Source: Candidatus Poribacteria bacterium
GTDB taxonomy: Bacteria; Poribacteria; WGA-4E; WGA-3G
Length of the DNA stretch: 38,881 nt
Direction of reading: 5' to 3'
Assembly (NCBI GenBank): GCA_022827885.1
Contig: JAJEIP010000112.1
Location: forward strand, 1 to 38,881
Below, piece after piece: positions 19,562-23,960 of the stretch. Numbering within the stretch: position 1 is the first letter of the stretch; each line of letters starts with the position of its first letter. The translations under genes and the position numbers were made by a program. Under the pieces are notes generated by a model. That model was given only the letters and a program-made list of their open reading frames with translations, ran no database searches and was not told the DNA's origin.

Positions 19562-20677
19562 ATGAAGCATCTGAATCTCCGCATGTATGCGATGGTGCTT
19601 GCCCTTGTCTGTGTTTGGGTGATTTTCACACTCCTGACCGGCGGCACCTTCCTCAGCACTCGGAACCTGTCTAACCTCTCCCGCCAAGCAGCGGTCACCG
19701 CCATCCTCGCTGTCGGCATGACCTTGGTCATTGTTTCTGCGAATATCGATCTCTCTGTCGGCTACGGTGCCGGATTGCTCGGTGCCATTGCCGCGATTAT
19801 ACACGTCTGGTGGGGACAATCGATCTTCGTGACGCTCATCGCTGTCTTATGCGTCGGCATCCTGATGGGGCTGATGCAGGGTTACCTCGTGGCGTATCAG
19901 CGAATCCCTGCCTTTATCGTCACATTGGGCGGATTTTTGGCGTATCGCGGTTTAATGTTAGCCTTCACCAAAGGGGAGACCATCCTCCTTCCAGACAATT
20001 GGCTCAAAGCAATCGGGAACGCCTATCTTTCGTCAGGACTTGGATGGGGACTCATGGTCGTTGGATTGGGTATCAACGGATACCGCCTTTACCGGCAGCG
20101 AACCGCCCAGCTGCAATACAGTCCTGAGCAAACATCCTGGCGGACTTTCCTATTGAAGCTCATCGGGACATCCACACTCATTGTAGCGTTTATTGCTGTA
20201 ATGAATGCTCACAAGGGAATCCCATTTCCTGTGTGTATTCTATTCGGTTTAGCGTTTGTGTTCCATTTTATCGCCAACCACACCCGTTTCGGACGTTATG
20301 TGTATGCAGTCGGTGGAAACGCCGAAGCGGCGTACCTCTCCGGAATCAACGTCCGTGGAATTACGTTACGGGTGTTTGCAACGATGGGTGCGCTGATGGC
20401 GATCGCTGGTGTTGTGATGACAGCACGGGTCGGGAGTGCCAGTCCAGAAGCCGGACGCCTGTTAGAATTGGATGCCATCGCCGCGTGTGTGATTGGCGGT
20501 GCCAGTTTGATGGGTGGACGCGGGAGCATCTTCGGGGCAATTTTAGGCGCGTTCGTTATGGAAAGTCTCAACAACGGAATGAGCATGGCGAACATGGATG
20601 CTTCATGGCAAGACATCATCAAAGGGGTCGTGCTTGTCGCAGCGGTCGGATTTGATATGGCATCTCGGCGGCGATAA
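19562..20677 (+). CDS. xylH: sugar ABC transporter permease, XylH-like
   Basis: A 371-aa polytopic inner-membrane protein of the ribose/xylose permease family. The best resemblance is to XylH of the D-xylose transporter: NLSRQAAVTAILAVGMTLVIVSANIDLSVG, PAFIVTLGGFLAYRG, the long insert with a second hydrophobic region, FGRYVYAVGGNAEAAYLSGINV, the EAA-like ELDAIAACVIGGASLMGGRGSIFG, and LNNGMSM near the end. About 10 membrane helices are expected. No ATPase (XylG) or binding protein (XylF) gene is adjacent, which is unusual since these are normally one operon. Xylose specificity is inference, although a xylose-isomerase-like gene lies 4 kb upstream. Confidence 0.85.
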   Translation: MKHLNLRMYAMVLALVCVWVIFTLLTGGTFLSTRNLSNLSRQAAVTAILAVGMTLVIVSANIDLSVGYGAGLLGAIAAIIHVWWGQSIFVTLIAVLCVGILMGLMQGYLVAYQRIPAFIVTLGGFLAYRGLMLAFTKGETILLPDNWLKAIGNAYLSSGLGWGLMVVGLGINGYRLYRQRTAQLQYSPEQTSWRTFLLKLIGTSTLIVAFIAVMNAHKGIPFPVCILFGLAFVFHFIANHTRFGRYVYAVGGNAEAAYLSGINVRGITLRVFATMGALMAIAGVVMTARVGSASPEAGRLLELDAIAACVIGGASLMGGRGSIFGAILGAFVMESLNNGMSMANMDASWQDIIKGVVLVAAVGFDMASRRR

Positions 20678-20705: not shown

Positions 20706-20766
20706 AAAATTCCGCTATTTACAGAAAAAAATTTAAACCCTTTCCCCCAAAATTCCGCTCTTTATA
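20706..20766 (+). repeat. 18-bp direct repeats upstream of the sigma-FtsZ gene
   Basis: AAAATTCCGCT is repeated at 20706-20716 and 20749-20759, and the match extends to 18 bp with 2 mismatches (to 20723 and 20766). The period is 43 bp and the second copy ends 24 bp before the ATG. It could be a tandem promoter or operator for the ECF-type gene. Confidence 0.5.
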
Positions 20767-20790: not shown

Positions 20791-22461
20791 ATGCGATACA
20801 ATTCATCAACCTACGCAGACCTAACAGATGAAGAACTCATTCAGCTTGTGCAAGATGGGGATGAGGTGGCATTTGCCCAACTCGCAGCCCGGCATAGTTC
20901 CAGAATTTGGCAATTCATTGTTTTGAACGCCCGCCAAATCCGCGACGCTGAAGAGATTTTTCAAGATATCTGGGTAGCAGTCTGGGAAAACATCAAAGGC
21001 TTACGCGAAATCAACAGTTTCGGTGCTTGGCTCAGGAAAATAGCATACACCACCTGTAGGAGATACTACACCACCAACTCGCACACAAGTGGTGAGATCC
21101 TTCAGAGCGCAGAGCAACTCGCTGAAACCATTGATCGGGATGTGCTTGCTCGGTTTCGAGAAACCGAACTCCGCGCCGCTGTAACGGAAGCAGTGCATCA
21201 CCTACCGGAGAAGGTTCGCGCCGTAGCCGTATTGTACTATTTAGAGATGTGGACCATCAAAGAAATTGCGACCGAGTTGGGTTTGGCGGTTGGCACTGTC
21301 AAGACAAAACTCAGCCAAATTCGGGCACTCTTACGCGAAGAATTTGGTGTTGAAGAAGTGAAGAGGGGAAACACTATGGCACATGGAAAGAAGGTATCCA
21401 AACCAGCACGTGACAAAATTAAGGTTTTCGGTATAGGTGACGCAGGTGGCAATGTGGTCAAACAGATGATTGCCTCCGGTTTGAGGGACATCGAATTTTA
21501 CGCTGTGAATACAGATGTGGAGGCACTCCGCACGTGCGATGGGGCAACACAGGTGCAGATCGGTGCTGAAACCACGCAAGGACTCGGCGCAAATGCGAAT
21601 CCCGAAATCGGCAGGAGGGCAGCCGAGGAAGATTTGGAAACACTTAACGCCATCGTTGCGGACGCTCGCATGATTTTCGTGACAGTAGGTATGGGCGGTG
21701 GAACGGGAACCGGTGCTGCTCCCTTAATCGCGTCCATCGCCCGAGAGCAGGACATTTTAACGATAGGTGTTGTGACACTTCCACTTGATTCTGAGGGACA
21801 ACGCCGCGCTGAACAAGCGGAGTACGGACTCCATGAACTCCGAGGAAACACCGATGCTGTTATCGTAATCCCGAATCAGCGACTGCTTGATACCGTGAAC
21901 ACAGAACCCTCAACGAGCGAAGTCTTCCGCATGAGTGATGAGACCCTGTTACTCGGCATTAAAACTGTCGCCGATATTATTGTGGACTCAGGTGAAGTTA
22001 GCGTTAATTTCGCCGATATAGAGAGTATCATGATGGATGCTGGCACGGTGTTGATGGGCATCGGACAAGCCTCCGGTGAAAATCGAGGGCGAATCGCTAT
22101 GGAAACCGCTATCGCTTCACCATTGCTGGATGGAAGAAACATCGGAAACGCAACTGGGCTGATTGTTAATATCAGTGCCCCGCAGGACTTTATGATGAAT
22201 GAATTAGATACGGCGATGAAGGTGCTCCAAGACGAAGCATTCGACGCGCAAATTATCTTTGGACTGACCTACAGAGACGACGATCCTGAGCCTGAAGGCA
22301 TGGTTTATGTTACCATCCTTGCCGCGGGGATTGAGCCGCAAAGTGAACCCAGTGTTACACCGTCCACCCAGCAGCGCGGAAACTCCCCTGGAGGAGACAC
22401 TCGCGTTTCATCTGCAGTCACGTCCGAATTTATTCATCAAATAAGTCTTGACTTACACTAA
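20791..22461 (+). CDS. ECF sigma factor fused to FtsZ
   Basis: One uninterrupted 556-codon frame. Residues ~1-190 are an ECF sigma factor: region 2 (LTDEELIQLVQDGDEVAFAQLAARH, AEEIFQDIWVAVWENI) and region 4 (LPEKVRAVAVLYYLEMWTIKEIATELGLAVGTVKTKLSQIRALL). Residues ~196-530 are a full FtsZ: IKVFGIGDAGGN, GLGANANPEIGRRAAEE, the tubulin signature GMGGGTGTGAAP, and MGIGQASGENRG. The T7 loop reads VNFADIESIM, with Asn for the first Asp of N-x-D-F-A-D. No C-terminal FtsA/ZipA-binding peptide is obvious. No stop separates the halves, but ATG 21376 has GAGGGG (21363-21368) 7 nt upstream, so FtsZ may also be made alone. No division gene is adjacent. Alternative: two genes merged by loss of a stop codon. 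Confidence 0.9.
   Translation: MRYNSSTYADLTDEELIQLVQDGDEVAFAQLAARHSSRIWQFIVLNARQIRDAEEIFQDIWVAVWENIKGLREINSFGAWLRKIAYTTCRRYYTTNSHTSGEILQSAEQLAETIDRDVLARFRETELRAAVTEAVHHLPEKVRAVAVLYYLEMWTIKEIATELGLAVGTVKTKLSQIRALLREEFGVEEVKRGNTMAHGKKVSKPARDKIKVFGIGDAGGNVVKQMIASGLRDIEFYAVNTDVEALRTCDGATQVQIGAETTQGLGANANPEIGRRAAEEDLETLNAIVADARMIFVTVGMGGGTGTGAAPLIASIAREQDILTIGVVTLPLDSEGQRRAEQAEYGLHELRGNTDAVIVIPNQRLLDTVNTEPSTSEVFRMSDETLLLGIKTVADIIVDSGEVSVNFADIESIMMDAGTVLMGIGQASGENRGRIAMETAIASPLLDGRNIGNATGLIVNISAPQDFMMNELDTAMKVLQDEAFDAQIIFGLTYRDDDPEPEGMVYVTILAAGIEPQSEPSVTPSTQQRGNSPGGDTRVSSAVTSEFIHQISLDLH
21363..21378 (+). promoter_or_regulatory. internal Shine-Dalgarno and ATG for stand-alone FtsZ
   Basis: GAGGGG (21363-21368), a 7-nt spacer and ATG (21376-21378, residue 196) lie at the sigma/FtsZ junction. 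The following residues begin exactly as an FtsZ N-terminus does, so internal initiation is plausible. Confidence 0.55.
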
Positions 22462-22549: not shown

Positions 22550-23911
22550 CTATTTTGCCAGATCTCGTGCCTCTTTGAATTTTTCTTTGGCAAATTGTCC
22601 CCAGTCCTTGATCTTTTCGTTGCGGACAGTCGGATCCTTCCAGTCGCTACGTGCCAGTTTCATCGCTTCTTCTTCGGTGATGGGCATCTTCGTTAAAGCC
22701 GCAATCGCTGCTTCACGTTTCGCCGGGTCCTTACACTTCCGAATTGCCTTCCATGCGTTAACGAGATCCTTATGCGAATCAATAATTAAAACACCGAAGA
22801 GATCGTTGACGATATTCCATCGGGTCCCCCCTTTATCTGAGTTATATTGGAAAGGGGTTCCCTCCATCGCAAATGGATTTGGGACAATACAGCGTTCGCC
22901 TAATTTATCGTAAAGTGCTGGTAGCACACTCGCCCGGTTTAAACCGCCCTTCCATTTGGGTCCCTCCGAGTCGGTGTCGCGGAGCATCCAGAGTTTCTGT
23001 GCGTCTTCCGATAAAACAAACTCAAGAAACTTTTGGGCGACAGAGAGGTTCGGAGCACCTTTGAGGATGGCAATAGGATCAGCGGTGACCACCGCGCCAT
23101 CCGCTGGAACAACATATTGGATTTTGTCCGCACCGACAACAGCAATCTGACCGTATGCATAAAAATCAATTGCGAGTCCATAAATGACCTGTCCGGCGAC
23201 GACATCTGTTGGAATAGCGTTCGCACCGGCGGAGAAACCGCGAACATTACCCCCAAGTTTCGTCAGGAGTGCGAACCCTTCGTCCCATCCGAGTGTTTGA
23301 AGGATAATCTCATACACCATGTGTGCTGAGCCACTCTCTCTTGGGTCGGCGGCACCAATTTTACCGAGCAATGCCACATCACCCAAATCCCGCCATGTCT
23401 TGGCTTTCGGGAGACTCAGCATTTCACGTAGCTCCTCATTGTGCATGATGCCGAAACTCGATAACGCTGCACCGTACCACTGATATTCAGCATCGTAGAG
23501 CGGGATACCTTGAAACGATTGTGTCATCTGCGCAAGTTGTGCCTCGGGGAGCTTGTAGGCATTCAACCAACCGTTGTTTGAAAGGCGGAGATAATTGTCA
23601 GTGCCACCCCCAAAGAAAATATCGACACTAATACCGTCTGGCACGCGCTTAAACTCCGATTCGATGAACCGATAGTTGGAAGAGGTACCCCCCACATCGC
23701 GCCAGTCGGTTTTGACGGTTCTACCGGTTTGTTCCTCATACCATTTCTCAAAATTATTTCCAAACTCCGTTTCAATCCCCTCTGGGTGTGGTGAAATAAT
23801 GATAAGTTCGTCCTGTGCAAACAGAACAGCAGGTAGTGCCAAAAGACATAATACAATCCCCCACGTCACAAGATGTCCGCTGCAACGTCCGAGGGGTTTT
23901 AAATAGGACAT
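22550..23911 (-). CDS. ABC transporter substrate-binding protein (Fe3+/small solute type)
   Basis: A 453-aa periplasmic binding protein. Residues 1 to ~33 form a signal peptide ending VLFAQ. The mature protein opens with the family's DELIIISPHPEGIETEFGNNFEKWYEEQTG and continues with VDIFFGG, KTWRDLGD, GKIGAADPRESGSAH, NAIPTDVVAGQVIYGLAIDFYAY and AQKFLEFVLSEDAQKLW. This is the pattern of AfuA/FbpA-like ferric or 2-aminoethylphosphonate binding proteins (SBP_bac class). GGAG 10 nt before ATG 23911 favours this start over GTG 23920. It converges with the sigma-FtsZ gene and follows the M23 peptidase gene. No permease or ATPase gene is adjacent. The ligand is not determined. Confidence 0.88.
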   Translation of the reverse strand: MSYLKPLGRCSGHLVTWGIVLCLLALPAVLFAQDELIIISPHPEGIETEFGNNFEKWYEEQTGRTVKTDWRDVGGTSSNYRFIESEFKRVPDGISVDIFFGGGTDNYLRLSNNGWLNAYKLPEAQLAQMTQSFQGIPLYDAEYQWYGAALSSFGIMHNEELREMLSLPKAKTWRDLGDVALLGKIGAADPRESGSAHMVYEIILQTLGWDEGFALLTKLGGNVRGFSAGANAIPTDVVAGQVIYGLAIDFYAYGQIAVVGADKIQYVVPADGAVVTADPIAILKGAPNLSVAQKFLEFVLSEDAQKLWMLRDTDSEGPKWKGGLNRASVLPALYDKLGERCIVPNPFAMEGTPFQYNSDKGGTRWNIVNDLFGVLIIDSHKDLVNAWKAIRKCKDPAKREAAIAALTKMPITEEEAMKLARSDWKDPTVRNEKIKDWGQFAKEKFKEARDLAK

Positions 23912-23960
23912 ACTTTTCACGCTCCTTTTTCATACAAGTCGTAATGCTGAAGATATGCAA

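Follow-up and report, generated by a model that had tools for sequence, protein, structure and literature searches.

The window, that is, the whole stretch of 38,881 nucleotides that was analysed, carries a single open reading frame of 556 amino acids in which an ECF sigma factor runs into FtsZ without a stop codon at the junction. The gene and its surroundings contain the following features.

19562..20677, forward strand: ORF resembling an ABC-type sugar permease, named by eye; upstream marker of the slot (synteny)
20732..20739, forward strand: predicted -35 element TTTAAACC of the sigma-fusion family promoter (exact match, upstream alignment, family count)
20758..20764, forward strand: predicted -10 element CTCTTTA, 18 nt past the -35 element (upstream alignment, exact match, family count)
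20791..22461, forward strand: sigma-FtsZ fusion gene, 556 aa (ORF, Pfam, NCBIfam)
20908..21081, forward strand: sigma-70 region 2, aa 40-97 (Pfam PF04542, Sigma70_r2)
21175..21333, forward strand: sigma-70 region 4, aa 129-181 (Pfam PF08281, Sigma70_r4_2)
21340..21405, forward strand: linker, aa 184-205, low model confidence (pLDDT <50)
21361..21369, forward strand: Shine-Dalgarno-like aagagggga in the linker, -8.1 kcal/mol with the anti-Shine-Dalgarno sequence (pairing energy)
21376..21378, forward strand: internal ATG, probable start of a sigma-free FtsZ (conserved linker Met, Shine-Dalgarno)
21415..22335, forward strand: FtsZ domain, aa 209-515 (Pfam PF00091 and PF12327; Foldseek)
21694..21723, forward strand: tubulin signature GGGTGTGAAP (translation)
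22000..22017, forward strand: T7 loop, SVNFAD instead of the canonical N.D..D (alignment with canonical copies)
22426..22458, forward strand: DnaE scar, EFIHQISLDLH where relatives have EFVHLHNHSEYSMLDGA... (joint alignment)
22550..23920, reverse strand: ORF resembling an extracellular solute-binding protein, named by eye; downstream marker of the slot (synteny)

The sigma half (aa 1-190) has no sigma-70 regions other than 2 and 4, and past sigma4 the frame continues into a C-terminal domain. It scores 79.3 bits against TIGR02937 (cut-off 42.9), and both Pfam regions exceed their cut-offs. The FtsZ half scores 322.6 bits against the NCBIfam ftsZ equivalog (cut-off 295.2), with the Tubulin/FtsZ GTPase domain at aa 209-369 and FtsZ_C at aa 418-515. 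The predicted structure, a model of middling confidence (mean pLDDT 69.4), consists of helical sigma domains, the linker at 184-205 and an FtsZ fold; its top Foldseek match among solved structures is the FtsZ 1rlu (TM-score 0.91 by target length).

The original prediction spoke of a complete FtsZ. This describes the GTPase core, the C-terminal domain and the fold, all of which are shared with canonical FtsZ (TIGR00065), and the tubulin signature that it named is intact. It is too strong in two respects: the catalytic T7 motif N.D..D, matched in 14 of 14 canonical copies compared, reads SVNFAD, and the protein lacks the partner-binding peptide with which the canonical copy ends (...DWEIPAFLRVQKRR). 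The window FtsZ also differs from canonical FtsZ in sitting behind a sigma factor and in belonging to fusion clades that are separate from it.

A second ftsZ does exist in the same genome (G000; 5.13 Mb in 148 contigs). Its three FtsZ genes are the canonical one, which adjoins an FtsA-like ORF (by eye), the window fusion, and a 407-aa sigma-FtsZ that holds the GTPase half alone and whose sigma is 61.7% identical to that of the window. DnaE is matched once and DnaN three times, and one of the DnaN genes, the third, is fused to an ECF sigma. The sigma domain gave 49 matches in this genome (L056-L083); many belong to frames about 900-1050 aa long that show a transmembrane-like stretch past sigma4.

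Distribution and exchange of cargo

Sigma-FtsZ orthologues of the window gene lie in frame at the same slot in 28 of the 38 genomes of the genus, including chromosome-sized contigs in G010, G018 and G005. The solute-binding gene lies downstream, on the opposite strand, in every one of the 28, and the permease lies upstream in 27; the contig of the remaining gene (G033) begins 198 bases before it. The predicted in-frame fusion is thus borne out, but the original prediction missed the continuation into DnaE, the cargo swaps and the shared promoter.

The sigma family is present in 37 of the 38 genomes of the genus, G013 being without any member. Across the order, matches at E 1e-32 occur in 56 of 72 genomes, every one of them in the window's own family, and the 14 genomes of other families gave no match at this threshold. 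We also scanned 84,980 species genomes with a pattern made from an alignment of 11 sigma domains of the fusion family and kept the best 80 of 105 sigma relatives; all 79 loci obtained from these are titled Poribacteria. So far, a set of sigma factors with exchangeable division and replication cargo has been seen only in Poribacteria. The host bacteria are a sponge-dwelling group.

Within the genus we count 88 family members (sigma identity at least 56%), of which 65 carry FtsZ (28 of them the window's group), 14 WD40, eight DnaN and one PurC. All 88 genes lie in frames of at least 398 aa, so none of the 88 linkers contains a stop. Architectures were assigned by domain searches of the fetched loci, with Pfam on examples; L145, a repeat of L090, was left out throughout.

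The FtsZ cargo comes in several forms. In 22 of the 28 window orthologues the frame continues into DnaE, mostly reaching 1344-1433 aa (1745 in G003; the frame of G030 is broken inside DnaE), and the same triple architecture occurs at eight loci of genus g19. Sigma-FtsZ without DnaE is found in the window genome, G008, G023, G028 and G034 and at five g19 loci; in G015 FtsZ is interrupted by a frameshift, and DnaE occupies the next frame. A 995-aa frame of G029 includes a DnaE copy for which a matching sigma was not found, perhaps on account of the contig end. The short form with the GTPase half only is present in 36 of the 38 genus genomes (30 domain-checked and six by matches spanning both parts) and missing from G004 and G013. 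The long frame of G003 (L049:2912-8149) has about 340 extra residues.

There are two kinds of sigma-DnaN: in eight genomes the partner belongs to the window's sigma family, and in G000, G010, G026, G033 and G061 (as seen by domain) to a different ECF subfamily. DnaN lies in frames of 575-617 aa in 33 of the 38 genus genomes, and the sigma part was checked in 13 genomes. The two fusions scanned with Pfam keep all three clamp domains of canonical DnaN and differ from it in being fused to a sigma; the 473-aa frame of G024 has a DnaN cargo without the first clamp domain. Further fusions are sigma-WD40, sigma-PurC (SAICAR synthetase, G023) and sigma-DnaE without FtsZ (G071). In the window genome, the DnaN fusion with the other ECF subfamily (L051:1845-3578, contig C33) precedes sigma-FtsZ-short by about 3.3 kb, two permease-like genes occupying the interval; it is probably a separate joining event.

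The window's slot itself has changed its content. In three species (G022, G024 and G035) it holds sigma-DnaN, and the sigma of the G035 fusion is 80.5% identical to the window's. The linker of the DnaN fusions (...SEPSREKIR or ...SEPSRDKIK) resembles that of the FtsZ fusions (...SKPARDKIK), as if DnaN had replaced FtsZ behind a kept linker. G023 and G028 each possess both an FtsZ fusion and a DnaN fusion. In G023 the slot contains sigma-PurC (L047:5356-6846) and then sigma-FtsZ, in tandem.

Several other joinings and paralogues were noticed. In g18, DnaN and FtsZ are joined directly and sigma-free (L446:2926-5007 in G063, 693 aa; L447:1738-3633 in G062, cut at the contig end), the G063 gene lying just upstream of a same-strand NtrC-like regulator (by eye). 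Sigma-free FtsZ GTPase halves of 212-222 aa (L448:2706-3344 and L449:3272-3940) adjoin repeated genes for proteins of about 270 aa. Extra DnaE paralogues of g18 and g19 (L461-L465) are distinct from both canonical and fused DnaE, and in G079 (L196:2114-3040) a sigma is in frame with an apparent partial second sigma region 2 (by eye).

History of the fusion

The end of the window gene preserves traces of DnaE. At the joint between FtsZ and DnaE, relatives read TSEFVHLHNHSEYSMLDGA and the window reads TSEFIHQISLDLH-stop; in the DNA, the start of DnaE is followed directly by aataagtcttga, a sequence like that at the 3' end of L035, an intact relative. In G034 a stop falls within the DnaE start, and G023 ends just past TSEFVH. 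A separate internal start for DnaE was rejected, as the sequences inspected contain no Met at the joint.

We built an FtsZ tree of 104 rows (IQ-TREE, midpoint root, without the second ORF of L142 and domain matches below 80 bits). The window copy with G008, and also G034 and G015, are nested among DnaE-bearing genes; the pair G023-G028 forms the first branch within the genus, and the DnaE-bearing g19 genes lie outside. Hence the triple fusion appears to be the older state, and the window copy is most simply read as a shortened descendant of sigma-FtsZ-DnaE.

In the same tree the canonical FtsZ of the sampled families forms one group (99/94). The window's group (28 rows) and its g19 counterparts (13 rows) are each a clade supported at 100/100, and the short forms are a third clade of 36 rows (100/98), including two sigma-free g19 short forms. 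A branch with support 97/86 separates the two long-fusion groups from the remainder, a split open to some doubt because several g19 rows have long branches. In a DnaE tree (85 rows, FastTree), the fused DnaE of both genera fall together (0.983) inside the family, on branches that place them only weakly relative to the canonical copies (0.32-0.36). Taken together, the groupings in the two trees suggest that the long fusion most likely had one origin, predating the split of the two genera.

An origin from phages or plasmids was rejected. No viral contig matched the peptide patterns, and among the matching records none of 44 from phages and none of 333 from plasmids reaches a query coverage of 80%. 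Among the plasmids, the match of greatest extent (aa 89-531) is to an ordinary ftsZ, the alignment extending upstream of that gene.

Shared promoter and internal start

Upstream regions of the family align on TTTTTTAAACC and CTCTTTA. Leaving out fusions with fewer than 120 bases upstream, a motif of the type TTTAAACC-N18-CTCTTTA, with TTTAAAC(C/T) and a CTC-type -10, stands before 97 of 101 family genes, and its spacing is 18 in 96 of the 97. With its AAC, the -35 element resembles ECF promoters.

The motif is closely tied to the family. The window has one exact site, before the fusion gene, with none expected in shuffles, and 112 of the 121 distinct sites in the fetched loci precede a family ORF. 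Of the nine others, seven are copies of a single recurrent sequence (GCGGTTTAAACCG...) that no ORF start follows, an eighth falls across the start of a different ORF, and the ninth is found some 0.6 kb upstream of a sigma-FtsZ-short. Scanning of the window's own genome covers about 8% of it. On two contigs apart from the window (388.9 kb) the sole site with at most one mismatch precedes sigma-FtsZ-short, and with up to two mismatches there are five sites against 3.4 expected. A weight-matrix scan of 497 kb (overlaps included, the window as such left out) recovered the sigma-FtsZ-short site and one weak hit before another ECF ORF, which scores 17.3 when 95% of family sites exceed 25.9. Canonical ftsZ, dnaE or dnaN do not appear to be driven by the same promoter: none of the 121 sites precedes one of them, and many fetched loci hold these genes. 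The natural reading is that the sigmas of the family would activate their own genes and those of their sisters.

The sequence also supports well the suggestion, made for the window alone, that FtsZ may still be produced from the internal start at 21376. A Met is found at a near-constant position after the sigma in FtsZ, DnaE and WD40 fusions, mostly with purine-rich AGAGGGGA-like DNA before it. We computed pairing energies against the 16S tail. At the linker ATG they reach -7 kcal/mol or better in 25 of 30 FtsZ-DnaE, 10 of 11 FtsZ-long and 34 of 34 FtsZ-short genes (69 of 75 FtsZ fusions), in 10 of 15 WD40 fusions, in 3 of 3 others and in the one DnaE fusion (1/1). As a control, 3.1% of 1637 other internal Met codons do so.

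When DnaN is the cargo, the site has moved. In the eight DnaN fusions of the window's sigma family the linker Met is missing (six) or weakly preceded (two), with none at -7 kcal/mol, and all eight have a strong site at the DnaN start (-8.0 to -11.6 kcal/mol). Counting DnaN at this start, a strong ribosome-binding site and an ATG mark the cargo in 91 of 102 fusions. The start of the sigma is weakly preceded: -7 kcal/mol or better is reached in 3% of the 102.

AGA and AGG account for 106 of the 112 Arg codons in the six codons before the linker Met, compared with 25% of Arg codons gene-wide. Shuffling synonymous codons yields median p values of 0.066, 0.131 and 0.11 for the three FtsZ groups and 0.29 for WD40, the related genes not being independent. 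The shuffles thus give only weak evidence of selection on ribosome-binding-site codons, because the residues themselves call for purines.

Standalone, unfused sigmas of 162-204 aa stop at the matching position (e.g., ...EFGVEPE-stop). The simplest story for the origin of the fusions is that a sigma gene merged into one frame with a next gene that had its own ribosome-binding site.

Selection and possible function

Median pairwise dN/dS (pairs with 0.05<dS<1.5) is 0.095 for sigma, 0.18 for FtsZ and 0.092 for DnaE in the window's group, 0.147 for sigma and 0.169 for FtsZ in the short group, 0.111 for sigma and 0.256 for DnaN in the DnaN group, and 0.161 for sigma and 0.199 for WD40 in the WD40 group. 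The canonical copies give 0.097 (FtsZ), 0.069 (DnaE) and 0.068 (DnaN). All tested fusion domains are constrained by purifying selection, the cargo less so than the canonical copy. The original prediction had offered a recent loss of a stop codon as one explanation of the merged frame; a fusion common to two genera, with purifying selection on its domains, contradicts this.

Functional motifs are retained to different degrees. The fused DnaE of the genus keep on average 93.5% of 263 canonical-invariant columns, and PDxDxDF is intact in 19 of 21 genes. Compared with canonical DnaE, the cargo keeps PHP, the polymerase core and the fingers; differences are its fusion to a sigma and its end, which in whole-gene cargo falls at canonical position ~803-884 and hence leaves out the rest of the DnaE protein. 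Among the FtsZ cargoes of the genus, GGGTG is present in all 28 long forms and in 30 of the 34 short ones. N.D..D is found in 22 of the 28 long cargoes (the window copy being an exception) and in 19 of the 22 FtsZ-DnaE cargoes. The short forms have no T7 loop, and their T3, T4 and T6 motifs are often changed.

Extended ECF sigmas are an established class. In the part of the literature covered by the review PMC8999054, known ECF groups have C-terminal domains that act as sensors; the order of sigma2, sigma4 and an in-frame C-terminal domain is shared with the fusions described here, and a WD40 version, another likeness, exists within the window's own sigma family. Unlike in those described there, the cargo here is FtsZ, DnaE, DnaN or PurC, it is exchanged at one locus, and it has an internal ribosome-binding site and start. 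An extended ECF sigma would be expected to have no anti-sigma gene alongside; the two genes flanking the window fusion resemble, by eye, a permease and a solute-binding protein. As the original prediction supposed, a sigma-FtsZ fusion does not seem to have been described before: our literature searches found none, and the word FtsZ is absent from the main text of both PMC8999054 and PMC8103513.

FtsZ and DnaN work as assemblies of like subunits, polymers or rings, which a fused copy could enter and bring the sigma along. Since most cargo belongs to division or replication and FtsZ and DnaN form such assemblies, we favour tethering or sensing: a self-activating ECF sigma whose exchangeable cargo would be a built-in sensor of, or tether to, the division or replication machinery. 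We give this reading an even chance of being right. A link of transcription to polymer state or division, already suggested for the window gene, remains the leading idea and fits the recurrence of FtsZ, DnaN and DnaE as cargo.

The mechanism might work in four steps. The sigma would transcribe its own and sister genes from the shared promoter, creating a positive loop. Two proteins would be made, the full fusion and the sigma-free cargo from the internal start. The cargo (FtsZ with its GTP-binding signature, or the clamp) could then dock on the cell's own FtsZ polymer or replisome, and the state of division or replication would decide whether the sigma is held there or let go. Finally, sigma-free cargo may compete for docking sites and so tune the loop. 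The third and fourth steps are inferred solely from the nature of the cargo.

Parts of the family fit this poorly. The missing T7 loop of FtsZ-short and the changed T7 of the window copy weigh against a sensor or tether; an FtsZ reduced to its GTPase half could sit only at a filament end. PurC and WD40 do not suit a pure division or replication sensor and argue for a wider sensor idea.

One could also argue that the fusions are expression cassettes. The sigma would then be a self-activating driver, what matters would be the extra cargo (FtsZ-like, DnaN, DnaE core, PurC) made from the internal start, perhaps under stress, and the joining would be neutral read-through. That the internal ribosome-binding site and ATG track the cargo after a swap, that the sigma start has a weak Shine-Dalgarno (the 3% given above) and that one promoter motif is common to the family all agree with this. 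However, neutral linkers should acquire stops or frameshifts, and the frame is intact in 88 of 88 genus members; moreover, the truncated cargo of FtsZ-short and DnaE could hardly replace the full proteins. We consider this explanation unlikely, although it is the one that survives best beside our own.

Somewhat more doubtful still is an enzyme turned ligand sensor. On this view the cargo would recognise DNA or a nucleotide (GTP in the case of FtsZ, ATP or intermediates in that of PurC) and alter the activity of the sigma through a conformational change, without involving the cell's polymer or replisome. The sensor role of C-terminal domains in the ECF groups treated in PMC8999054 is a precedent. 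The retention of GGGTG also speaks for such a sensor, but the frequent changes of T3, T4 and T6 in FtsZ-short speak against it. Nor is DnaN known to have a small ligand.

We think it improbable that the cargo is a decoy or guard, in which case it would lure inhibitors of FtsZ, DnaN or DnaE that phages or competitors produce, and an inhibitor, once bound, would activate the sigma. FtsZ, DnaN and DnaE are known kinds of inhibitor target, the cargo varies at one slot, and its dN/dS lies above that of canonical copies. However, PurC and WD40 are not obvious targets, and the sampled DNA shows no targets beyond the genes of the family itself.

An assembly or annotation artefact or a decaying pseudogene, suggested by the broken frames of G015 (in FtsZ) and G030 (in DnaE) and by the metagenome-assembled status of the source records named, is already refuted by the same fusion in 28 genus assemblies, some on chromosome-sized contigs, by its synteny, by dN/dS of 0.09-0.26 and by the conserved promoter motif.

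Weighed against all these rivals together, tethering or sensing stands about level. A bolder version is that the fusions are self-transcribing cassettes that acquire and swap copies of core proteins of division and replication as interlocking probes, reporting the state of the Z-ring and replisome directly to RNA polymerase, with a sigma-free competitor made from the same message. We put this forward tentatively and would not be surprised to see it fail.

It has long been asked how bacterial gene expression is coupled to replication and division. In this one bacterial family, FtsZ, the replicative polymerase and the sliding clamp have become joined to a transcription initiation factor; this seems to have happened more than once, and two sigma subfamilies are involved. 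Given the swap of cargo at one locus, the promoter motif that the family shares and the two products predicted, the link could be tested directly in a laboratory host, and sigma-cargo fusions could yield portable sensors of division or replication state. If the cargo does act as a probe of the cell cycle, then the fusion would wire transcription to the cell cycle in these bacteria.
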